Source: Alentia gelatinosa
Lineage: Eukaryota > Annelida > Polychaeta > Phyllodocida > Polynoidae
DNA length: 64,000 nt
Direction: 5' to 3'
Assembly: GCA_950022655.1 (NCBI GenBank)
Contig: OX465592.1
Coordinates: 4,485,544 to 4,549,543, forward strand
How positions within the stretch are numbered: position 1 is the first letter of the stretch; each line of letters begins with the position of its first letter. The position numbers and the translations under genes were made by a program. Of this stretch, positions 20,380-53,347 are shown piece by piece. The notes beneath the pieces were generated by a model, which saw only the letters and a program-made list of their open reading frames with translations, was not told where the DNA came from and ran no database searches.

Positions 20380-20726
20380 CGCGCGGTATGTGAGCTGAGC
20401 TGGTACCCGGCGACCACCTGTCAGAGCGACTACTTCCAGCTTCCAACCAGCGAATTCCCGCAGCGTTCCGAACGCGACGCGTCACGCCGGGAGACAGAGC
20501 GTCTGACGTCATATCCGGGCACGTGGAGCGCGTACAGAACGCCATACGTCACAGTGTGCCCGAACGTGCCGTAGGTCTGTGTGTTACTATTAGTGCGGGA
20601 GTTTTCCACGGAGGCGGATCTACCACTTATCATCGACACACTGTAGTGTGAAGGAGGATCTAAAACCAGCCGGACGTACACATACAAGGTCAGAGACACT
20701 CAAGGTCACACATAGACGCTGCAAAC
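20380..20726 (+). promoter_or_regulatory. CpG-rich promoter / 5' UTR region
   Basis: A sharp rise in CpG density from about 20380 continues into the ORF at 20727. No TATA box is obvious at a fitting distance. An E-box-like CACGTG is at about 20520. Inferred promoter and 5' UTR from composition and position only. Confidence 0.4.
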
Positions 20727-21176
20727 ATGTCGCTCTTCAAGATGTTTGGTGGCGGTAGCGGCGGACGCTCAAAAAGTGACAAACCCGATACACCGTCCCG
20801 AGACCATGCTTCCGACGCCGCCCAGAAGAGGGCGCCAGCGGCGGAGGGCGGACAGGAAGCGCTGGACCCGGACGAAGCCGAGGCGCGCGCCGCGGCTGCG
20901 CAGTTGGACCTTCCGTTCCGGTCCGGGAAGAAGAGCCGGAACTTGTCCATCTCCCGCTCCGGACGACACCGCTACCGGAACAACAAGCGCGCAAGCGTCG
21001 TCACCGGCGAGGTGTTCACTTCCGCCGACGCCGGAACCGGAAACGGAACCGGAAACGGAACCGGAAGTCCCGCCGCCGCCGCAGCCGCCGCCAACTATTG
21101 CCGGGACTCGAAGGCGTCGCATGGCGCCATGGTTCAGACTCACACGCCAATGGCGCGGACGCCTACGGCCGTATAA
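20727..21176 (+). CDS. PRR15: PRR15-family protein
   Basis: Single-exon ORF of 149 residues. The diagnostic block is at residues 68-92, KKSRNLSISRSGRHRYRNNK followed by RASVV, which matches the conserved C-terminal core of vertebrate PRR15/PRR15L (RNLKISRSGR followed by a basic stretch). The N-terminus is short and Gly/Ser/Lys rich (MSLFKMFGGGSGG). Residues 20-60 are charged and Ala-rich. Residues 103-122 are low-complexity Gly/Asn/Thr then poly-Ala. No membrane segment or signal peptide. In vertebrates PRR15 is also encoded in one coding exon and its molecular function is not settled. The ORF lies in the window's clearest CpG-rich island, with codon use unlike the AT-rich surroundings, which supports a real gene. 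The start is the first Met of the frame within the island. I am sure of the family and less sure that the C-terminus ends here without splicing. Confidence 0.85.
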   Translation: MSLFKMFGGGSGGRSKSDKPDTPSRDHASDAAQKRAPAAEGGQEALDPDEAEARAAAAQLDLPFRSGKKSRNLSISRSGRHRYRNNKRASVVTGEVFTSADAGTGNGTGNGTGSPAAAAAAANYCRDSKASHGAMVQTHTPMARTPTAV

Positions 21177-35040: not shown

Positions 35041-35559
35041 CTGTTAATGGTTATACAATAGAGAATACAGGTCTACATAAATGAAGGAAACGATGGTTAT
35101 TAGGTTAAAATGTTTATCAATAACACATAATTAAGTAAATAAATATAAATTATATAATATAAATGAATATAAATATACAAAAAAAAATTTAAAAATTAGA
35201 GGTTAAAAGAGCATTCCCGAGCCGGCCCGGGCGGCCAGAGTGTGCTTTTTCATGGTAATAACCACATCTCTAGCAGCTCTGGGCGGGCTACAGTGAGTGG
35301 ATATTAGTACCAGTGATTTTCGCGCCTGCTGAAGGTGCCAGGTAAGAGGCCCGCTTACAGGTTAGCTGTGGGCGACGCAGGGAGGGCTGGGGGCTTTGAA
35401 GGTGCGGTATTCAGTGAGCCGTTGCGGCTCTGGGCGGCTCACGATGAGTCCTTTTAGGGCTGATGATTTCTCTCAGAAGTTACTGGGGTGGGGGCGGGGG
35501 GGGGGGGGATGGGATGGGGGCATTGTCTGGGGGTATGAGAAGGAGCGAATTTCACAAGG
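35041..35559. other. Spacer with AT-rich block and short G run
   Basis: No gene seen. A G-run of about 10-12 lies at 35497-35508. Confidence 0.35.
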
Positions 35560-36385
35560 AAGGTAAATATGTTATCACAAATTAAAAAGTACATCACCAC
35601 CGAGCAAGCTATCCAAATATATAAAACAAAAGTCCTACCCTTCCTAGAATACGGCGACATCTTCATGCACTCGTGTAATAAGCAACTCTTAGCAAGGTTA
35701 CAAAGAATACAGAACAAAGCGCTGAAAATCTGCATGAATGTGAACATTCGAACTAACACCAACGAAACCCACTCCGTATGTAAGCTAAATAAATTAGAAG
35801 AGAGAAGAGAAGCCCACATACTAAATCAGAGCTATAAGAGAAGTTTACAGCCAATATATATAGACGATAGGACGAGAAAGACAAGAGCAGGTGACACAAA
35901 AGTATTGCATGAGGAGAGAATAAACATTGAAGCTTATAGAAGGAGCATAAAATGCAAAACAGCAAGGGCGTGGAACACATTGCCCCCTGAAACAAAATCC
36001 ATCAACTCATACAATGACTTTAAATCATTTACCAAGAGAAACCTAACTGCCAGTAGAAAAGCCTACTAAATTGTCAGAAGGAACATACTGCTGATATACT
36101 GAAAGAAGTAAGTCGATACTGATGGTACCAATGTGACTCCCACGGCCTGCCTGGTCCGACAAAGTAACTTATCAAAAACGTAAGCACATCTCTCATTGTA
36201 ATTATCATTAAATCACCTCATTGTACATGTATCCATTTATCATTGTACATACCATCAATATTAGTTAAACAAATAGCGAATGGAACAAAAACACCCTGCT
36301 GGCCCTGGAGCCTACTGAAAATAGGGCCTTTTGACCCTTGTACATCCCTCCAGAATAAACATAACTTAAAAAAAAAAAAAAAAAG
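35560..36385 (+). pseudogene. 5'-truncated LINE copy with poly(A)
   Basis: An uninterrupted 166-residue ORF (35569-36069) matches the C-terminal domain of a non-LTR retrotransposon reverse transcriptase: MLSQIKKYITTEQAIQIYKT, VLPFLEYGDI, LLARLQRIQNKALKIC and ARAWNTLPPE. These follow the order seen after the RT thumb in jockey/CR1/I-type elements. The catalytic palm is absent, so the copy is 5'-truncated, the usual outcome of target-primed reverse transcription. A 3' UTR of about 300 bp follows and ends in A17 at 36368-36384. The ORF has no stop or frameshift, so this is the youngest of the three LINE pieces. The Met at 35569 is just an internal codon of ORF2. Confidence 0.88.
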
Positions 36386-36661: not shown

Positions 36662-37264
36662 TCGTACCAAATATGAAGAGAATCGGCCGCAGCGTTACGA
36701 AGATATCGGCGTTTGAATTTTGTTATGCTCTGGTGGCCAGTGTCAAGCACTTCCCGTCGGCCTAAATATCTAAATATTATTGAAGGATAATTGCTGTATG
36801 AAGTACAAAGAATTATTAAATGGTAAAGGTTATTAAATGGGCACCCGTTTTCCCTAAATATGTGTGGTTTTGAGGAGATAGAGGCAGTTGCTCACCGAAT
36901 GGGTAGTGGCAGACGTATCCGCGTTCCTCTCTACACTCAGCGTCCCAACCCACTCCACCTTTCGTACCAAATATGAAGAGAATCGGCCGCAGCGTTACGA
37001 AGATATCGGCGTTTGAATTTTGTTATGCTCTGGTGGCCAGTGTCAAGCACTTCCCGTCGGCCTAAATATCTAAATATTATTGAAGGATAATTGCTGTATG
37101 AAGTACAAAGAATTATTAAATGGTAAAGGTTATTAAATGGGCACCCGTTTTCCCTAAATATGTGTGGTTTTGAGGAGATAGAGGCAGTTGCTCACCGAAT
37201 GGGTAGTGGCAGACGTATCCGCGTTCCTCTCTACACTCAGCGTCCCAACCCACTCCACCTTTCG
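36662..37264. repeat. Perfect 300-bp tandem duplication
   Basis: Positions 36662-36964 are identical, base for base as far as I can read, to 36962-37264. The right end of each copy (CCCAACCCACTCCACCTTTC) is the start of the 144-bp array unit that follows. Perfect identity in neutral DNA means very recent duplication or an assembly duplication. Confidence 0.95.
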
Positions 37265-37559: not shown

Positions 37560-38060
37560 ACGGAGGCTAGTCTACCCATGTACCAACCCACTCCACCTTT
37601 CGGCGACGGGTTGCTGATGGGTGGGGAAAAGGGATGGTGCATTGTGGCCATCCTAACAAATCCCCAAGATGGCAGGACTGACTACCGTTTGGTATCTATC
37701 CAACAGCTATCGACATTACCCATGTACCAACCCACTCCACCTTTCGGCGACGGGTTGCTGATGGGTGGGGAAAAGGGATGGTGTGTTGTGGCCATCCTAA
37801 CAAATCCCCAAGATGGCAGGACTGACCACCGTTCGGCATCTATCTGACAGCTATCGACATTACCCATGTACCAACCCACTCCACCTTTCGGCGACGGGTT
37901 GCTGATGGGTGGGGAAAAGGGATGGTGCGTTGTGGCCATCCTAACAAATCCCCAAGATGGCAGGACTGACCACCGTTCGGCATCTATCTGACAGCTATCG
38001 ACATTACCCATGTAACAACCCGCTCCACCTTTCGGCGACGGGTTGCTTATGGGTGAGAAG
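37560..38060. repeat. 144-bp minisatellite, about 3.4 copies
   Basis: Units start TACCAACCCACTCCACCTTT at 37581, 37725, 37869 and 38013. A more diverged copy is at 37248-37390. The array ends exactly against the - strand LINE ORF at 38060, so the unit may derive from that LINE's 3' UTR. 144 is a multiple of three, giving false ORFs. Confidence 0.93.
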
Positions 38061-38840
38061 GTCAACTGGGAGGGTGTTCCATAATTGACAGCCTCTGTAA
38101 CCTGGAGATCTTTTATAGAATTCAGACTTTGGTCGTCTCAAATTGAACAGCAGTTTATTAGGAGACCTTAACACTGGCCCTTCATCGTCCATCCCGTTCT
38201 CGTCTGGGAGCTCCAAAGTACCGAACTCATTGAAGTATACCCTTCTCATATAAGTGAGCATTAACTCGTTATGTCTACGCTCAAGAGCAGCTGTTTTTGT
38301 TTTTTCATGAAGCTGTTTGACAATGTTCACCAGGGCGTGACCCCCGAGGACGATACGCAGGCCCTGGTTCTGGAGCCGCTGGAACTTTTTTAGCCCAAAT
38401 CTTATTTGCCCCTTCAACAATTAAACAGGCATAATCAAATAATGGCAAAATTGCTTGCTTATGAAGGACCTCATATACCCCACTATACACTATAATCACT
38501 TGAAAAAGGCTGCTATAAAGCCGAAACGTTGTGAAACCTGCTGTTCTAAATAAAGCCATCACTAAAACCGACTACAGACTGCTGTCGAGTTGTGCTTGTT
38601 TAAAGATTTTATGATTTTATTATATACTTTAAGTGCTACATTCTTTGACATACAATGGCGATTTCTTTGTAATATAGATAATTTATGCGAAACTTTCTTG
38701 ATTACATTTCTAGTGTTTTTCTAGTGACATAACTGTGTCTAGGTGTACACCAAGGTATAAATAAGAGTTCACCTGATCTATCTCTGTTAGATTTATATAC
38801 AGCTCTATATTATCATTTAAGAAGTTGGAAAAAATTCCTT
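38050..38840 (-). pseudogene. LINE reverse-transcriptase C-terminal region, interrupted
   Basis: Read on the - strand: ...SYLYLGVHLDTVMSLEKH (about 38780-38710; the 'YLGV.LD....L..H' motif of LINE RT), then after a frameshift NVIKKVSHKLSILQRNRHCM and VALKVYNKIIKS (about 38704-38610). There follows an insert (about 38450-38605), then AILPLFDYACLIVEGANK (about 38456-38403), and FQRLQNQGLRIV (about 38385-38350) to LLFNLRRPKSEFYKR and GCQLWNTLPVDL (about 38065). Domain order is right for a jockey/CR1-like ORF2 C-terminus. At least two frame breaks plus an insertion show it is dead. Confidence 0.8.
38455..38605 (+). mobile_element. Insert in the LINE with a hammerhead-like hairpin; possible Penelope-like remnant
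   Basis: Inside the LINE ORF the + strand reads CTTGAAAAAGGCTGCTATAA followed by AGCCGAAACGTTGTGAAAC: a GGCT/AGCC stem then CGAAAC. This is the arrangement of stem II and the GAAAC core of hammerhead ribozymes, which occur in terminal repeats of Penelope-like elements. The first core (CUGANGA) is not intact here. Short repeats of GCTTG flank the insert (about 38452 and 38597). The assignment is tentative. Confidence 0.4.
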
Positions 38841-44397: not shown

Positions 44398-44642
44398 ATG
44401 TCTGACGTCACACGATGGACTACGTCAGACGCTGTCACCAAGAGTGACGTCAGCAAAAACACCAAGAGTGACGTCAGCAAAAACACCAAGTCTGACGTCA
44501 CCAAAACCACCAAGTCTGACGTCAGCAGGCCTGGTTTGTCGACCTTCTCGCAGGTGGCGCGTCGAATGCTGCCGTCTAAAGGCGCGCTCAGTCAGAAAGG
44601 AAAGGTGCCGCTCAGTCTGTGGAGAGGACAGTTTGGGAGGAG
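44398..44642 (+). CDS. DYNLT4-like: Tctex1-domain gene, exon 1
   Basis: 81 codons plus 2 bases. Starts MSDVTRWTTSD; contains three to four tandem 24-bp units (AAGAGTGACGTCAGCAAAAA plus CACC), each carrying a cAMP-response palindrome TGACGTCA within coding sequence. Ends WRGQFGR; the split codon AG/G restores Arg with exon 2. The octapeptide repeat is low complexity and likely disordered. Confidence 0.8.
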
Positions 44643-47600
44643 GTAGCCTTTCACTTTACGATTAAGAAAGAAACTAATGAGTGTTTGGTCTGTGTCCTCA
44701 TTCGCCATCGAGTTTGGAGTGCCCAGTAGTATGCACGAGGCGATAGCCGAGTGAATATTCTGAAGCACCCCAAACACGAAAATGTTTCTGATTTTATCTT
44801 AGCCTAGAAATATCTATCTGTTTACCAACCGTTGAGAACGAGTTACTGTACTCGCAAGCCTGTTGAGAACGAGTTCCTAATGTTTAAACTATGGACGTTT
44901 ATTCCAGGCTAAGATAAATACCCAGCCCATGTATACTGTAAATATGCAGCATATGACGTAAAATTAGTTTTCCGTACGGCAAAATACGGAACATCATCTT
45001 GTACACGTTGACTAAAATATCAGCAGTTAGGCCAAATCAAATTAATCTTTTTTTATTCATTTCGGGTACATAGTAAATATAGAACGTCCTACCATGCTTG
45101 TACAAGCCACAAAACTTGATAATAATTTACGGTTCGTACAGTACTCGGCGTAAAGTCCTCGCTCCATACAAACCATAAATTCTCATCTCGTTTTGTGGCT
45201 TGCACAGCATGGTCATGATGTTCTATATGATTACATGATCTCTATAATGTATTTAGAAGGAAATTCATGAGATATGAAAAACTTGATCCAAACCTCCACC
45301 CGTACTTAAACCTCGGTCTGCAACCTCTGTTTAAATATCCGGGGGCGGAGGTTCGTTAAAGTAATAATTCGTCCCCAGGAATACAGTTTTCTCACTTTAT
45401 CTCACCTGTGTTCATGTTGACTGTGCTGCGTGCTTGCTGATGTCTGACTCAGTGTGGTTCGTCTACAGGCCGGGAGAGGGCGGTGTGTTCATGTTGACCG
45501 TGCTGCGTCTGACTCAGTGTGGTTCGTCTACAGGCCGTGAGAGGGCGATGTGTTCATGTTGACCGTGCTGCGTGCTTGCTGATGTCTGACTCAGTGTGGT
45601 TCGTCTACAGGCCGTGAGAGGGCGATGTGTTCATGTTGACCGTGCTGCGTGCTTGCTGAGGTCTGACTCAGTGTGGTTCGTCCTCAGGCCGGGAGAGGGC
45701 GGTGTGTTCATGTTGACCGTGCTGCGTGCTTGCTGATGTCTGACTCAGTGTGGTTCGTCTACAGGCCGGGAGAGGGCGGTGTGTTCATGTTGACCGTGCT
45801 GCGTCTGACTCAGTGTGGTTCGTCTACAGGCCGTGAGAGGGCGATGTGTTCATGTTGACCGTGCTGCGTGCTTGCTGATGTCTGACTCAGTGTGGTTCGT
45901 CTACAGGCCGTGAGAGGGCGATGTGTTCATGTTGACCGTGCTGCGTGCTTGCTGAGGTCTGACTCAGTGTGGTTCGTCCTCAGGCCGGGAGAGGGCGGTG
46001 TGTTCATGTTGACCGTGCTGCGTGCTTGCTGATGTCTGACTCAGTGTGGTTCGTCTACAGGCCGGGAGAGGGCGGTGTGTTCATGTTGACCGTGCTGCGT
46101 CTGACTCAGTGTGGTTCGTCTACAGGCCGTGAGAGGGCGATGTGTTCATGTTGACCGTGCTGCGTGCTTGCTGATGTCTGACTCAGTGTGGTTCGTCTAC
46201 AGGCCGTGAGAGGGCGATGTGTTCATGTTGACCGTGCTGCGTGCTTGCTGAGGTCTGACTCAGTGTGGTTCGTCCTCAGGCCGGGAGAGGGCGGTGTGTT
46301 CATGTTGACCGTGCTGCGTGCTTGCTGATGTCTGACTCAGTGTGGTTCGTCCTCAGGCCGGGAGAGGGCGGTGTGTTCATGTTGACTGTGCTGCGTGCTT
46401 GCTGATGTCTCACTCAGTGTGGTTCGTCTACAGGCCGTGAGAGGGCGGTGTGTTCATGTTGACCGTGCTGCGTGCTTGCTGATGTCTGACTCAGTGTGGT
46501 TCGTCTACAGGCCGTGAGAGGGCGGTGTGTTCATGTTGACCGTGCTGCGTGCTTGCTGATGTCTGACTCAGTGTGGTTCGTCTACAGGCCGTGAGAGGGC
46601 GGTGTGTTCATGTTGACCGTGCTGCGTGCTTGCTGATGTCTGACTCAGTGTGGTTCGTCTACAGGCCGGGAGAGGGCGGTGTGTTCATGTTGACCGTGCT
46701 GCGTGCTTGCTGATGTCTGACTCAGTGTGGTTTGTCCTCAGGCCGGGAGAGGGCGGTGTGTTCGGGGCTGTGGGTGGAGGAGACCGACTCGCCAAGACGG
46801 TCAACGCCCTGCGCGCTGCTGTCCGCTTCAGGGGCCCCGTGAGTACCGAGTTAATTAGTGTACACCCAGTAGTGAGCACTGTCTGTAATATACAGCTGGT
46901 AATCAACTCACCACTGGTATTTTTTTCAATAGACTTAACATTAAGAACTCCTATCCAACACCCATGAGATATTTTAGGAAAAGTATTCAATGGGGGATTA
47001 TATCACAAATGTTACCCCATTAGTCAATGTAAAGGGTGAGATAAATTCAGAAACCCATTTAAGTTTAGGGTCAGAGCTTGATCCCATATTACTTGAATTG
47101 CTACATGCAGCTTCACTTTGTGAATTACTACTCAATTCAAACACAATGGGATACTATCAAGAAACGTCACAAGTTTGAGTCTGAGTTTATTTATGCCACG
47201 CATTTTGTTGGCTCCATAATTTCACGAGTCGAGGACAAGTGACATTACAGAGCCAACAAAATGAGTGGCATGAATAAGCTCCAACTCAAACGAGTGGCGT
47301 CTAGATTTTGTCCTACCCCGTTTTCATATTTTTTCAGTATCAGAAAGTAGTGGCTTAAACAGCACTTTATGTCACACCCGTGACATAAACAAAACCCATG
47401 TTAAGCCTATGGCGTTTTTTATTAGGGGTAGGATAAAAGCTCTGACCCTAAACTTTCATAGGTTTCCTCAATAGTATATACCTGGTAGTGAGTGACATCC
47501 TTTTCTGAAAGTTCGCAGGGTGCCTGTATAATGAGTAGATTATACTGACTCTATCTGAATGTTCGCAGGGTGCCTGTATAATGAGTAGATTATACTGACT

Positions 47601-50600
47601 CTGTCTGAATGTTCGCAGGGTGCCTGTATAATGAGTAGATTATACTGACTGTCTGAATGTTCGCAGGGTGCCTGTATAATGAGTAGATTATACTGACTCT
47701 GTCTGAATGTTCGCAGGGTGCCTGTATAATGAGTAGATTATACTGACTCTGTCTGAATGTTCACAGGGTGCCTGTATAATGAGTAGATTAAACTGACTCT
47801 ATCTGAATGTCCGCAGGGTGCCTGTATAATGAGTAGATTATACTGAATGTCTGCAGGGTGCCTGTACAATAAGTAGATTATACTGACTCTATCTGAATGT
47901 CCGCAGGGTGCCTGTATAATGAGTAGATTATACTGACTATCTGAATGTCTGCAGGGTGCCTGTATAATAAGTAGATTATACTGACTCTATCTGAATTTTC
48001 GCAGGGTGCCTGTATAATGAGTAGATTATACTGAATGTTCGCAGGGTGCCTGTATAATGAGTAGATTATATTGACTCTATCTGAATATCCGCAGGGTGCC
48101 TGTATAATGAGTAGATTATACTGACTCTGTCTGAATGTTCGCAGGGTGCCTGTATAATGAGATTATACTGACTCTGTCTGAATGTTCACAGGGTGCCTGT
48201 ATAATGAGTAGATTATATTGACTCTATCTGAATGTTCTCAGGGTGCCTGTATAATAAGTAGATTATACTGACTCTATCTTAATGTTCGCAGGGTGCCTGT
48301 ATAATGAGTAGATTATACTGACTGTCTGAATGTTCGCAGGGTGCCTGTATAATGAGTAGATTATACTGACTATCTGAATGTCCGCAGGGAGCCTGTATAA
48401 TGAGTAGATTATACTGACTCTACCTGAATTTTCGCAGGGTGCCTGTATAATGAGTAGATTATACTGAATGTTTGCAGGGTGCCTGTATAATGAGTAGATT
48501 ATACTGACTCTATCTGAATGTTCGCAGGGTGCCTGTATAATAAGTAGATTATACTGACTCTGTCTGAATATTGGCAGGGTGCCTGTATAATGAGTAGATT
48601 ATACTGACTCTGTCTGAATGTTCGCAGGGTGCCTGTATAATGAGTAGATTATAGTGACTCTATCTGAATGTCCGCAGGGTGCCTGTATAATGAGTAGATT
48701 ATACTGACTATCTGAATGTCTGCAGGTGCCTGTATAATAAGTAGATTATACTGACTCTATCTGAATTTTCGCAGGGTGCCTGTATAATGAGTAGATTATA
48801 CTGAATGTTCGTAGGGTGCCTGTATAATGAGTAGGTTATACTGACTCTATCTGAATGTTCGCAGGGTGCCTGTATAATGAGTAGATTATACTGACTCTAT
48901 CTGAATGTTCTCAGGGTGCCTGTATAATAAGTAGATTATACTGACTCTGTCTGAATTTTCGCAGGGTGCCTGTATAATGAGTAGATTATAGTGACTCTAT
49001 CTGAATGTCCGCATGGTGCCTGTATAATGAGTAGATTATAGTGACTCTGTCTGAATGTTCGCAGGGTGCCTGTATAATGAGTAGATTATACTGACTCTGT
49101 CTGAATGTTTGCAGGGTGCCTGTATAATGAGTAGATTATACTGACTGTCTGAATGTTCGCAGGGTGCCTGTATAATGAGTAGATTATACTGACTCTGTCT
49201 GAATGTTCACAGGGTGCCTGTATAAAGAGTAGATTATACTGACTCTATCTGAATGTCCGCATGGTGCCTGTATAATGAGTAGATTATACTGACTCTGTCT
49301 GAAAGTTCGCAGGGTGCCTGTATAATGAGTAGATTATACTGACTCTGTCTGAATGTTTGCAGGGTGCCTGTATAATGAGTAGATTATACTGACTCTATCT
49401 GAATGTTCGCAGGGTGCCTGTATAATAAGTAGATTATACTGACTCTGTCTGAATGTTGGCAGGGTGCCTGTATAATGAGTAGATTATACTGACTCTATCT
49501 GAATGTTCGCAGGGTGCCTGTATAATGAGTAGATTATACTGACTTTGTCTGAATGTTCGCAGGGTGCCTGTATAATGAGTAGATTATACTGACTGAATGT
49601 TCGCAGGGTGCCTGTATAATGAGTAGATTATACTGACTCTATCTGAATGTCCGCAGGGAGCCTGTATAATGAGTAGATTATACTGATTCTATCTGAATGT
49701 CCGCAGGGTGCCTGTATAATGAGTAGATTATACTGACTATCTGAATGTCTGCAGGGTGCCTGTATAATAAGTAGATTATACTGACTCTATCTGAATGTCC
49801 GCAGGGAGCCTGTATAATGAGTAGATTATACTGACTCTATCTGAATGTCCGCAGGGTGCCTGTATAATGAGTAGATTATACTGACTCTGTCTGAATGTTC
49901 GCAGGGTGCCTGTATAATGAGTAGATTATACTGACTCTATCTGAATGTCCGCAGGGTGCCAGTATAATGAGTAGATTATACTGACTCTATCTGAATGTCC
50001 GCAGGGTGCCTGTATAATGAGTAGATTATACTGACTCTATCTGAATGTCCGCAGGGTGCCTGTATAATGAGTAGATTATACTGACTCTATCTGAATGTTC
50101 GCAGGGTGCCTGTATAATGAGTAGATTATACTGACTCTGTCTAAATGTTCGCAGGGTGCCTGTATAATAAGTAGATTATACTGACTCTATCTGAATGTTC
50201 GCAGGGTGCCTGTATAATGAGTAGATTATACTGACTCTGTCTGAATGTTCGCAGGGTGATCCACACTTGGCCGATGCGTACCGCCTCGATCCCAGCCCCG
50301 AGTGTCACTTCCAGTCGGACAAGGTGAAGAAGCTGCTGCAGGTCATGCTGGAGACGCGACTCGAGGGCTTCAGGTGAGTGTCTCATCCCTGTACAGTACA
50401 ATTCTGGTGTACACTAATTGGCTGTATTACCCATGGTATACAAAGTCCCCATAGAGAATGTATGGGGACTTCGTAAACCAAGATCCATTGTTTAAAAACT
50501 GCCAGATACCATAGCCATGGTATGCTAATTCAAAAGTATGGTATACGGCCTCAAATCCATGGTATATGGAGAAAAAAGTCCCTTTTAGCCATAGTGCAAA

Positions 50601-53347
50601 ACAAATAGTCCCTAGTGATATTCCCATAAAAACGGCAATTTCTGGGTTTAATTCATAGACCCTCTTCACACTGGCGCCATCTTGTAATGGCCGCCCATGT
50701 ACGTCAATCGAAAACGAGACGCGCCCTCTCCACTTAGTCCTGAATATTGATAATAATACTATTGATTCTCTAACTTGAAAGATGGAAATCGCTCTCACGT
50801 CTTAACTAATCGGCCGATTTGTATAATCAATACATTGTTAGAAAGCTGAGACTTGGACCTATCTGCTGGTGTATATATATGATATACCAGTGTTATGGCT
50901 AACGTTTCCTGTCATAGATTGAACATTGGAATTGTTTTAGGTAAAAAATACCAAAAGATGTAACCTTCCTGTTTTCAGAGATTTACTGAAAAATCTACCG
51001 CGATGACCTACAAAAATAACTATCCTATCTTATTAGGTATTTCATGACAATTAATATGATACCTATATCGCCAGGCTGTGATAAATATTTCCTGAGATAA
51101 TGGTGCATTATCATAGATGACAAGGAGTCAAAAAGAGCACTAGAAAATATTTGATTTTCAGATATTATTGCATTTTAGATACTGACTTTGATACAAAGTT
51201 GTCAAAGGTTGCTATATTCTATAAGTGCAATAATTATTCCCCAGTATATCTTATTTTTTAATTCTCCTACTGTAAAAGGTTTATTATTGTATCAGATTTA
51301 AAACATGATCAAATATTGTGATAAATTCCCAAATTTCATGACAATTAACTGGTGCATTATTAGTTTATTACTTCAGAAAATATCTATCACAACCTGGTAA
51401 TATTGGTATCATTTTAATCGTCTTTAAATGCCTAAGAAGGTAGGATGTTTATTTCTATAGGTCATCGCGATAGATTTTTCATTAAATCACTTTGAAAGCA
51501 GGAAGATGACAGGTTTGTGGGTTTTTTTTACCCAAACAATTTTGAGGTTCAAGCTATGACAGGAAATCATAACCATAACACAGGTATATCATATATATAC
51601 CAACAGATAGGTCTATGTCCCAGCTTTCTAAAAATGTTTTAATTGTAAAATCCGGCCATTTATTTATGACAGAAGAGCGATTTACATTTTCGTTGCTATG
51701 GTGGTATTAGGCGCTTGCTGCAGTGTTGGCTTCACTCTGACAGTGCTTGCCTCGTTCTGGAGTGCGGGAATTTCGCTGGTCCCCGGCTGGTAGTTTATCA
51801 AGTATATAGAACCAGCGAAACCCGTTATCATAGCGATCGCAGCGCCACCCTTATGTGCAAGAGGTGAATTGGAGAAAATGGATTACAAATACAACAAATG
51901 ATGGTTTTGTGGAGGGGCGGCTCTGTAAACTATGCGTCAACCTCTTTTGGTTTATGTCCACAAAACCAGCGATTATTTTCTATGTATTTTTATGGTGTAC
52001 ACTAATTGGCTGTAGGTTTATGGTGTATATTAATTGGCTGTATTTTTACGGTCTACACTAATTGGCCATATTATCATGGTGTACACTAGTTGGCCATATT
52101 ATCATGGTGTACACTAGTTGGCCATATTATCATGGTCTATGCTAATTGGCCATATTATCATGGTGTATACTAGTTGGCCATATTATCATGGTGTACACTA
52201 GTTGGCCATATTATCATGGTCTATGCTAATTGGCCATATTATCATGGTGTATACTAATAGGCCATATTATCATGGTGTACACTAATCGGCCATATTTTTA
52301 TGGTGCACACTAATATACCATATTTTTATGGTGCACACTAATTGGCTGTATTTTCATGGTGTACACTAATTGGCCATATTATTATGGTGCACACTAATTG
52401 GCCATATTATCATGGTGTACACTAATTGGCCATATTTTTATGGTGCACACTAATAGACCATATTTTTATGGTGCACACTAATTGGCTGTATTTTCATGGT
52501 GTTCACTAATTGGCCATATTATTATGGTGCACACTAATTGGCCATATTATCAGGGTGTACACTAATTGTCCATATTCTCATGGTGTACACTAATTGGCCG
52601 TATTATCATGGTTTACACTAATTGTCCATATTATCATGGTGTACACTAATCGGCCATATTTTTATGGTGCACACTAATATACCATATTTTTATGGTGCAC
52701 ACTAATTGGCTGTATTTTCATGGTGTACACTAATTGGCCATATTATTATGGTGCACACTAATTGGCCATATTATCATGGTGTACACTAATTGGCCATATT
52801 TTTATGGTGCACACTAATAGACCATATTTTTATGGTGCACACTAATTGGCTGTATTTTCATGGTGTTCACTAATTGGCCATATTATTATGGTGCACACTA
52901 ATTGGCCATATTATCAGGGTGTACACTAATTGTCCATATTCTCATGGTGTACACTAATTGGCCGTATTATCATGGTTTACACTAATTGTCCATATTCTCA
53001 TGGTGTATACTAATTGGCTGTATTTTTATGGTGTACACTAATTGGTTATATTTTTATGGTGTACACTAATTGGCTGTATTATCATGGTCTATTACAGGTA
53101 TGACGGTAGGACGGCCTCCTCCACCATCTTGTCTCTGTCGCGGCAGATCACAGACGAGGTCAAGGCCTTTGAGTTCCCTCGCTACAAACTCGTTTGTAAT
53201 GTCATCATGGGTCAAGTTGAAGGTCAGGACATACAGATCTCCAGTCGCTGCTTGTGGAATAGCTTCTCAGACTCCTACGCCTGCGTGACCCACCAAACAC
53301 CCTCCTACTTTGTGGTGGCCCTCGTCCATGCCACTTACCATGAATAA
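44398..53347 (+). CDS. DYNLT4-like: Tctex1-domain protein, four coding exons
   Basis: Exons 44398-44642, 46742-46838, 50255-50373 and 53098-53347 join in phase to 711 nt (236 residues plus stop). The Tctex1 domain spans about residues 128-236: VKKLLQVMLETRLEGF, then the ITDEVKAFEFPRYKLVC helix-strand block, then SSRCLWN...SYACVTHQ and FVVALVHATYHE at the C-terminus. These are hallmarks of dynein light chain Tctex-type proteins. RYKLVC and the long N-terminal extension are most like DYNLT4 (TCTEX1D4), with DYNLT5 as the alternative. The length fits (human DYNLT4 is about 220 aa). Family members act with dynein, intraflagellar transport or ciliary motors. Residues 15-43 carry a repeated K-S-D-V-S-K-N-T octapeptide. 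A TGA at 44389-44391 is in frame just before the ATG, fixing the start. Donor 1 (AG/GTAGCC) is weak; donors 2 and 3 are GTGAGT. Every intron holds a large minisatellite running into its acceptor. Confidence 0.88.
44676..44916 (-). mobile_element. Bipartite palindrome-MITE, type I, in intron 1
   Basis: Palindrome about 44676-44788 with arms GTGTTTGGTCTGTGTCCTC / inverted and apex GCACGAGGCGATAGCCGAGTG, then TTTTATCTTAGCCTAG and outer end TCCAGGCTAAGATAA. Starts only 33 bp after the exon 1 donor. Same palindrome class as 4110-4290. Confidence 0.82.
44922..45228 (-). mobile_element. Bipartite palindrome-MITE, type II, in intron 1
   Basis: Related to 5196-5535: degenerate outer end at 44922, inner end TTTCGGGTACATAGTAAAT (about 45059), palindrome 45084-45228 with arms CTTGTACAAGCCACAAAAC / GTTTTGTGGCTTGCACAG and apex ACTCGGCGTAAAGTCCTCG. 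Confidence 0.75.
45250..45407 (-). mobile_element. Palindrome half of a type I element, cut off by the intron 1 array
   Basis: Palindrome-like segment 45252-45392 with inner stem AACCTCCACCCG/inverted GGGGGCGGAGGTT, followed by the inner end CTTTATCTCACCTGTG. The module that should follow is absent and the 77-bp array starts at this point. Confidence 0.55.
45407..46763. repeat. Intron 1 minisatellite, 77/63-bp units, spanning the exon 2 acceptor
   Basis: About 18 units of GCTTGCTGATGTCTGACTCA, then GTGTGGTTCGTCTACAGGCC, then GGGAGAGGGCGGTGTGTTCA and TGTTGACCGTGCTGCGT. Some units lack about 14 bp. A higher-order unit of 296 bp repeats about three times (for example 45673-45968 and 45969-46264 look identical). 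Every unit contains YAG/GCCGKGAGAGGGCGRTGTGTTC, the true acceptor plus the first 22 nt of exon 2, preceded by CTGAC. Confidence 0.95.
46742..46838 (+). CDS. DYNLT4-like: Tctex1-domain gene, exon 2
   Basis: 97 bp reading (R)PGEGGVFGAVGGGDRLAKTV and then NALRAAVRFRGP. Acceptor CCTCAG, donor CCC/GTGAGT. The first 22 bases (GCCGGGAGAGGGCGGTGTGT plus TC) are also part of every unit of the upstream array; the unique exon begins at 46764. Confidence 0.82.
46970..47470 (+). mobile_element. Type I palindrome-MITE split by a second MITE
   Basis: Inverted relative of 18683-18957. Module 46970-47046 (ends AAGGGTGAGATAAATTC), palindrome left arm 47050-47090 (AAGTTTAGGGTCAGAGCTTG), then at 47441-47460 the right arm AGCTCTGACCCTAAACTT. 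The element at 47152-47440 lies between. Confidence 0.8.
47152..47440 (-). mobile_element. Bipartite palindrome-MITE, type I, nested
   Basis: Full copy of the 28142/29605 class: ACTATCAAGAAACGTCACAA, palindrome, TAGATTTTGTCCTACCCCG, outer end TTAGGGGTAGGATAA. Inserted in the palindrome of the 46970 element, in intron 2 of the Tctex1 gene. Confidence 0.87.
47490..50258. repeat. Intron 2 minisatellite, 50-bp unit, about 55 copies, ending at the exon 3 acceptor
   Basis: Unit GGTGCCTGTATAATGAGTAG, then ATTATACTGACTCTGTCTGA and ATGTTCGCAG. Each unit has TACTGAC (a good branch-point match) followed about 20 nt later by CGCAG/GGTG. The last CGCAG/GGTG at 50251-50258 is the genuine exon 3 acceptor, after which sequence turns unique (GATCCACAC). 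Units vary in the polypyrimidine stretch and several are 10-14 bp shorter. Confidence 0.97.
50255..50373 (+). CDS. DYNLT4-like: Tctex1-domain gene, exon 3
   Basis: 119 bp reading GDPHLADAYRLDPSPECHFQ and then SDKVKKLLQVMLETRLEGF. Acceptor TTCGCAG/GGTG is the last copy of the acceptor-like motif in the 50-bp array; donor CAG/GTGAGT is strong. The YRLDPSP..HFQ...V.K.L..VLE pattern is the usual lead-in to the Tctex1 fold. Confidence 0.88.
50403..53097. repeat. Intron 3 minisatellite, about 28-bp unit, ending at the exon 4 acceptor
   Basis: Units of CATGGTGTACACTAATTGGC plus CATATTAT. One copy is at 50403-50428, just after the donor. About 38 copies are at 51985-53097. A 364-bp higher-order block is repeated (about 52279-52642 and 52643-53006). 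Units contain CACTAAT, a possible branch point; the last unit reads CATGGTCTATTACAG and ends on the exon 4 acceptor. Confidence 0.95.
50775..51695. mobile_element. Long-inverted-repeat element in intron 3
   Basis: Two diverged arms of about 350-400 bp face each other. TTAGAAAGCTGAGACTTGGA (about 50840) matches inverted AGACATAGGTC..CAGCTTTCTAA near 51610-51634. Matching inner landmarks are TACCGCGATGACCTA / TAGGTCATCGCGATA. Arms extend outward to GAAATCGCTCT (about 50782) / AGAGCGATTT (about 51665). No transposase ORF; MITE or fold-back of unknown superfamily, sitting inside the split 28-bp array. Confidence 0.75.
53098..53347 (+). CDS. DYNLT4-like: Tctex1-domain gene, terminal exon 4
   Basis: 250 bp, 82 residues from YDGRTASSTILSL to VHATYHE. 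Acceptor TATTACAG. The stop TAA at 53345-53347 overlaps AATAAA (53343-53348). A MITE starts only 50 bp downstream at 53397, so the 3' UTR either is very short or includes the MITE. Confidence 0.9.

Follow-up and report, generated by a model that had tools for sequence, protein, structure and literature searches.

Three unrelated intronic minisatellites end at or near the predicted 3´ splice sites of a Tctex-1 family gene

Tandem repeats that span exon-intron boundaries have been described in amphioxus under the name of mirages. They are found in Adh3 and in the globin genes BflGb6 and BflGb9 (PMC3087553) and also in PGBD5 and troponin C (PMC3902484). The BflGb6 mirage (150-160 bp, with 6 copies in one of two haplotypes and 3 in the other) lies on the acceptor side and that of BflGb9 on the donor side; mirages thus occur at both boundaries (PMC3087553). 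Here we examine a predicted gene of the Tctex-1 family, located in a 64,000-nt stretch of contig OX465592.1 (the window; contig positions 4485544-4549543), whose three introns each hold a minisatellite with its right end within 22 nt of the predicted 3´ splice site. A preliminary description of this DNA had stated that no named family of such arrays was known, although boundary-spanning repeats had already been named in amphioxus (PMC3087553, PMC3902484). Our favored reading, to which we assign a probability of just under 60%, is that each of the three unrelated minisatellites began as a local tandem duplication at the 3´ splice site and was tolerated because the terminal copy remained intact.

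The predicted gene has four exons, separated by three GT-AG introns:

44398..44642, forward strand: exon 1, 245 nt, beginning with the ATG start
44643..46741, forward strand: intron 1, GT-AG, 2099 nt
46742..46838, forward strand: exon 2, 97 nt
46839..50254, forward strand: intron 2, GT-AG, 3416 nt
50255..50373, forward strand: exon 3, 119 nt, where the Tctex-1 homology begins
50374..53097, forward strand: intron 3, GT-AG, 2724 nt
53098..53347, forward strand: exon 4, 250 nt including the stop, with the Tctex-1 domain (PF03645)

Joined, the four predicted exons encode a stop-terminated protein of 236 aa without internal stops, and the earlier statement that the gene is in phase throughout therefore holds across all junctions. 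Exon 4 matches Tctex-1 (Pfam PF03645, E = 2.9e-20), and among solved structures the C-terminal part is closest to ciliary dynein light chains of the Tctex2/LC2 type (lowest E = 9.6e-17). No gap interrupts the alignments to Tctex-type dynein light chains at the exon 3/4 junction, and with Tctex-type protein 2B the aligned region opens at residue 1 of exon 3. Homology across this junction and up to the start of exon 3 supports predicted acceptors 2 and 3. Acceptor 1 is predicted from the reading frame and the splice consensus, and so the earlier view that the acceptors are probably right is backed by homology at two of the three sites. A wrong gene model or a dead gene, with the exons or acceptors elsewhere, would be compatible with the absence of homology support for exons 1 and 2 and acceptor 1 and with exons that are known from sequence alone, but the intact 236-aa frame and the ungapped homology up to residue 1 of exon 3 make this extremely improbable. 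A protein search for relatives gave 651 candidates, none of them at E <= 0.001.

The three intronic arrays were called by Tandem Repeats Finder (TRF):

45407..46763, forward strand: array 1, in intron 1, 77-bp unit
47504..50258, forward strand: array 2, in intron 2, 50-bp unit, 56 copies
51985..53088, forward strand: array 3, in intron 3, 28-bp unit, 39 copies

The three units are mutually unrelated, with all six pair and strand comparisons at the level of shuffled units. Together with the TRF calls, this confirms that the introns carry unrelated minisatellites of 77, 50 and 28 bp. Array 1 extends 22 nt into exon 2 and array 2 extends 4 nt into exon 3, and in both cases the unit includes the acceptor, exactly as had been described. 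For intron 3, however, the proposal that the last unit supplies the acceptor fails because the 28-bp unit does not carry it: array 3 stops 9 nt short of exon 4, and the TTACAG acceptor is missing from the unit (39 copies read, with 10 scattered AGs within the array). Both array 1, which is internally a four-unit block present three times, and array 3, in which 13 units recur as a duplicated block (at lag 13, 12 of the 25 unit pairs are identical), have a block structure that fits later unequal exchange. No polarity was detected in array 2 when the distance of each unit to the terminal unit was compared with its position (rho = -0.13, p = 0.33). None of the intronic periods is a multiple of 3, while exon 1 contains a coding minisatellite (44436-44527, ~3.8 copies) with a 24-bp unit that is in frame and encodes TKSDVSKN-like octapeptide repeats. 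This is what would be expected if intronic copies are free to vary and coding copies are not.

Arrays 1-3 resemble mirages as tandem repeats of minisatellite type. Arrays 1 and 2, whose units combine intron sequence with 22 and 4 nt of exon sequence, respectively, fit the definition. Array 3, which stops 9 nt before exon 4, is not counted among the mirages; like the arrays at two other loci introduced below (L030 and L032), it adjoins the acceptor without spanning it and represents a variant. Mirages splice normally despite their duplicated signals; for the present gene the use of the terminal acceptor is predicted from the frame. Length polymorphism and somatic instability are features of mirages, and the present arrays are known from one haplotype. 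Mirages belong to amphioxus genes, and the present arrays lie in a genome that is probably not that of a lancelet. It has 15 large chromosomes and 1.23 Gb, compared to 19-20 chromosomes, ~0.5 Gb and many GFP genes in Branchiostoma, and a search for GFP (PF01353) gave 0 matches, in a run in which no control gave a match either. In addition, and unlike the situation for mirages, all three introns of one gene are affected, with as many as 56 copies compared to the 6 and 3 of the BflGb6 haplotypes. Donor-side arrays, of which BflGb9 has one, were not found here (0 of 23 donors at 11 loci). The literature searched, mostly non-subscription, yielded no report of mirage-type arrays outside lancelets. 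The original amphioxus Adh paper is reportedly that of Canestro and colleagues from 2002.

Some other systems share single features with this gene. In the AGGT model of intron gain, an exonic AGGT is tandemly duplicated and both splice sites are copies (PMC3443670). The likeness is a tandem duplication that touches splice sites, but within the window units 1 and 2 have no copy beyond their own arrays, and neither intron 1 nor intron 2 has one at its donor end. The variable number tandem repeat in intron 6 of TERT, with a 38-bp unit, is also an intronic minisatellite, for which the accessible part of the text mentions no tie to an acceptor (PMC11830802). Intron 1 of an earthworm metallothionein gene holds large minisatellite arrays, and duplications of the fourth exon are missing from the final transcript (PMC12783039). 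The resemblance here is that of large arrays in an invertebrate first intron; ending at an acceptor is not described for them in the portion of that report that was available.

Given that units 1 and 2 include the acceptor, these introns contain many internal copies of it. The sequence CAG/GCC (the slash marks the splice site) is present in all 18 acceptor-bearing copies of array 1, the terminal one included. In array 2, 54 sites match AG/GG[TA]G, again with the terminal site counted, and the G of the AG is retained in 53 of the 56 aligned copies. Branch-point-like CTGAC or CTAAT sequences were also found in array units, with CTAAT in the unit of array 3. The retained acceptors and the branch-point-like sequences favor selection for acceptor redundancy or for regulated splicing, with the internal acceptors either used or held as spares, a possibility raised in the preliminary description. 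However, when the frame was followed from the upstream acceptors in introns 1 and 2, premature stops resulted from 17 of 17 in array 1 and from all 53 of the form AG/GG[TA]G tested in array 2, leaving an open frame only for the terminal acceptors among those tested. In addition, the AG pair in array 2 is only middling in its conservation, with 22 of the 49 pairs of adjacent columns (the AG pair counted) no more conserved, and column conservation in array 2 therefore gave no sign of selection on the internal acceptors, although homogenization within the array weakens this test. Because the tested upstream acceptors lead to premature stops, we find no support for redundancy and consider it very unlikely. 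Use of the terminal acceptor is predicted.

How common minisatellites are in this genome (1.234 Gb in 101 contigs, 15 of which are 38-181 Mb long) was determined for 15 loci of ten kb (L002-L016), taken at fixed places that are arbitrary rather than random, namely at 1 Mb in C2-C15 and at 20 Mb in C1. On average 31% of these 150 kb was tandem repeat (range 0 to 71%), in 60 arrays, and 1.7% of the bases had the right end of an array no more than 22 nt away; sites so close to chromosome ends may exceed the average repeat content. The mean GC content of the 15 loci was ~45% (range 38-51%). Codon-based exon finding did not work in these loci, giving 14 segments at T = 25 compared to 11 in reversed sequence. 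As minisatellites are this dense, we tested the placement of the three arrays. When one such array was dropped at random into each intron, the probability that all three right ends came to lie no more than 22 nt from the acceptor was ~1e-4 (5.5e-5 by simulation and 9.7e-5 as the product of the single probabilities).

The gene in the window had been picked by a reader, and other loci were therefore examined. A genome search for the Tctex-1 family gave 27 matches at 20 loci, the window gene among them, and a search for Cpn60/TCP1 gave 53 matches, from which five compact stretches, which we take to be CCT genes, were analyzed. Three more arrays with right ends at or close to acceptors were found. 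At L038, a CCT gene, a 64-bp unit present in 2.0 copies ends exactly at the boundary between AG and exon. At L030, a Tctex-1 relative, an array of 28 bp x 15.9 ends with the A of the AG, and at L032, another Tctex-1 relative, an array of 32 bp x 3.6 ends 7 nt short of the exon. A permutation test with random shifts was carried out on 11 loci, comprising six Tctex-1 relatives and the five CCT stretches, with 28 acceptors, 23 donors and eight array regions; it made no use of L002-L016. Acceptors had been placed exactly at an AG in 22 of the 28 cases, with four off by 1-4 nt and two uncertain, and donors exactly in 16 of 23, with three displaced by 1-2 nt and another four uncertain. Outside the window gene, three of the eight right array ends were within 22 nt of an acceptor, compared to a null mean of 0.17 (P = 0.0003). 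At the 23 donors, no left end fell within 22 nt, which is not significant against a null mean of 0.11. The comparison of array ends with acceptors, donors and random positions, called for when the arrays were first noted, thus gave an excess at acceptors over random positions, but it does not establish that acceptors are preferred to donors because the null expects only 0.11 at donors. Coincidence in a minisatellite-rich genome gains from the 60 arrays per 150 kb of arbitrary loci, from the 1.7% of bases near a right array end, and from the choice of the case out of a scan with a follow-up test that came after its cases were known. Set against the P values of ~1e-4 for the three introns and 0.0003 for the other loci, it appears improbable.

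The composition of the units bears on how the arrays began. Because units 1 and 2 contain exon sequence together with the AG, the duplicated stretch straddled the boundary. In the 309 kb examined, none of the six array units (arrays 1-3, L030, L032 and L038) has a match at any locus but its own; within this scope the units look local rather than derived from a dispersed satellite or carried by a transposon. Short sequence matches serve slippage and end-joining, and one of these routes, acting on such matches near the 3´ splice site, may have produced the first tandem pair. For intron 1, the candidate match is the 7 nt TGTGTTC, which is found at the left edge of array 1 and again in exon 2. The two-copy, 64-bp pair at L038 resembles what an early stage of array birth might look like, and unequal exchange would then amplify such a pair. 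Since the terminal copy keeps the acceptor and the exon intact, the duplication would be harmless if the last acceptor is the one spliced; this acceptor could be chosen through exon definition, presumably because it alone adjoins a real exon that is followed by a donor.

Two further sequences lie in intron 3:

50402..50442, forward strand: remnant of the intron 3 unit, a copy of the array 3 unit 28 nt after the donor
50779..51690, no strand assigned: foldback element, with arms at 50779-51101 and 51367-51690

The arms of the foldback element are ~325 nt long and 79.5% identical, and the element sits between the remnant and array 3. Because a copy of the unit lies near the donor, array 3 may formerly have extended to the donor side or across the intron. 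This would suit a history in which arrays are born anywhere in introns and expand or drift to the exon edge, where purifying selection halts them, as would the ends of array 3 and of the L030 and L032 arrays 9, 1 and 7 nt before the exon and the 31% minisatellite content of the 15 arbitrary loci. However, the exon sequence duplicated in units 1 and 2 indicates that the edge was crossed, and L038 is already at the boundary with two copies and so did not grow to it. Also, no left end was found within 22 nt of the 23 donors, though this is not significant. We regard growth up to such a barrier as unlikely.

Several observations weigh against origin by local duplication at the 3´ splice site. The permutation was done after the three cases were known, Tctex-1 relatives make up six of its 11 loci, and the CCT stretches were selected for small size. 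Thirteen of the 19 other Tctex-1 loci were omitted as no acceptor could be placed in the flank, and four of these contain additional array regions, one of which, at L027, overlaps the end of the domain. Two of the 28 acceptors (L033 and the second of L040) and four of the 23 donors are only roughly placed, and the L030 acceptor is predicted from its open frame. In L035, a relative that has the same intron, arrays lie ~850 nt upstream and none is at that acceptor. Apart from that of array 1, the short matches at array ends are weak or ambiguous: the one in intron 2 (12 nt) may be a partial unit, and those of intron 3, L038, L030 and L032 (5, 2, 3 and 6 nt) are the best of 48 offsets. The units of intron 3, L030 and L032 lack exon sequence and a complete acceptor, and thus show no straddling, and additional unit copies are present upstream in the same locus for intron 3 and L032.

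We infer a birth bias of duplications at 3´ splice sites from these data. The wider version, in which 3´ splice sites are hot spots of minisatellite birth through a transcription- or splicing-linked process that acts in unrelated genes, with the lancelet mirages as one case of a more general animal habit, is possible but rather doubtful. A process that targets 3´ splice sites had been suggested at the outset. It is favored by the three of eight array ends at acceptors elsewhere (P = 0.0003), but neither the donor contrast (0 of 23, null 0.11) nor the occurrence of mirages at both boundaries points to acceptors in particular. For breaks at R-loops, the GC skew of the units (+0.29 for intron 1, +0.20 for intron 2 and 0.00 for intron 3) does not give a consistent signal across the arrays because the intron 3 unit is at 0.00. 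What has been a lancelet anecdote from a few genes could become a countable effect in another genome, in which arrays are scored against annotated acceptors and donors. If acceptors do attract newborn duplications, they would constitute an intragenic mutational hot spot from which new introns and cryptic exons could arise, and splicing would be put to a hard test, as it would need to skip 17 or 53 near-identical acceptors and pick the last.

The 5´ parts of introns 1 (44643-45406, 764 nt) and 2 (46839-47503) consist largely of dispersed repeats, further copies of which are present at other places in the window and at loci including L010 and L014. Pfam searches with 10 open reading frames of the window gave no match above the curated cut-off, and Rfam and tRNA scans found nothing. 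The open frame at 20664-21176 has a match to Pfam ATAD4 below this cut-off (E = 3.4e-4) and resembles PRR15/PRR15L. Two more open frames (35539-36069 and 38004-38420) have no supporting Pfam match but resemble the C-terminal parts of non-LTR (long terminal repeat) retrotransposon proteins. At 36662-37264, two tandem copies of 300 bp are 100% identical, reflecting either a very recent duplication or an assembly artefact. Among the Tctex-1 matches in the genome (L017-L036), many have the whole domain in one open frame, which suggests that the family is large and partly retroposed. One of these loci, L027, contains a tandem duplication (1235-1509, 140 bp x 2) that overlaps the 3´ end of the Tctex-1 coding sequence and extends beyond it.
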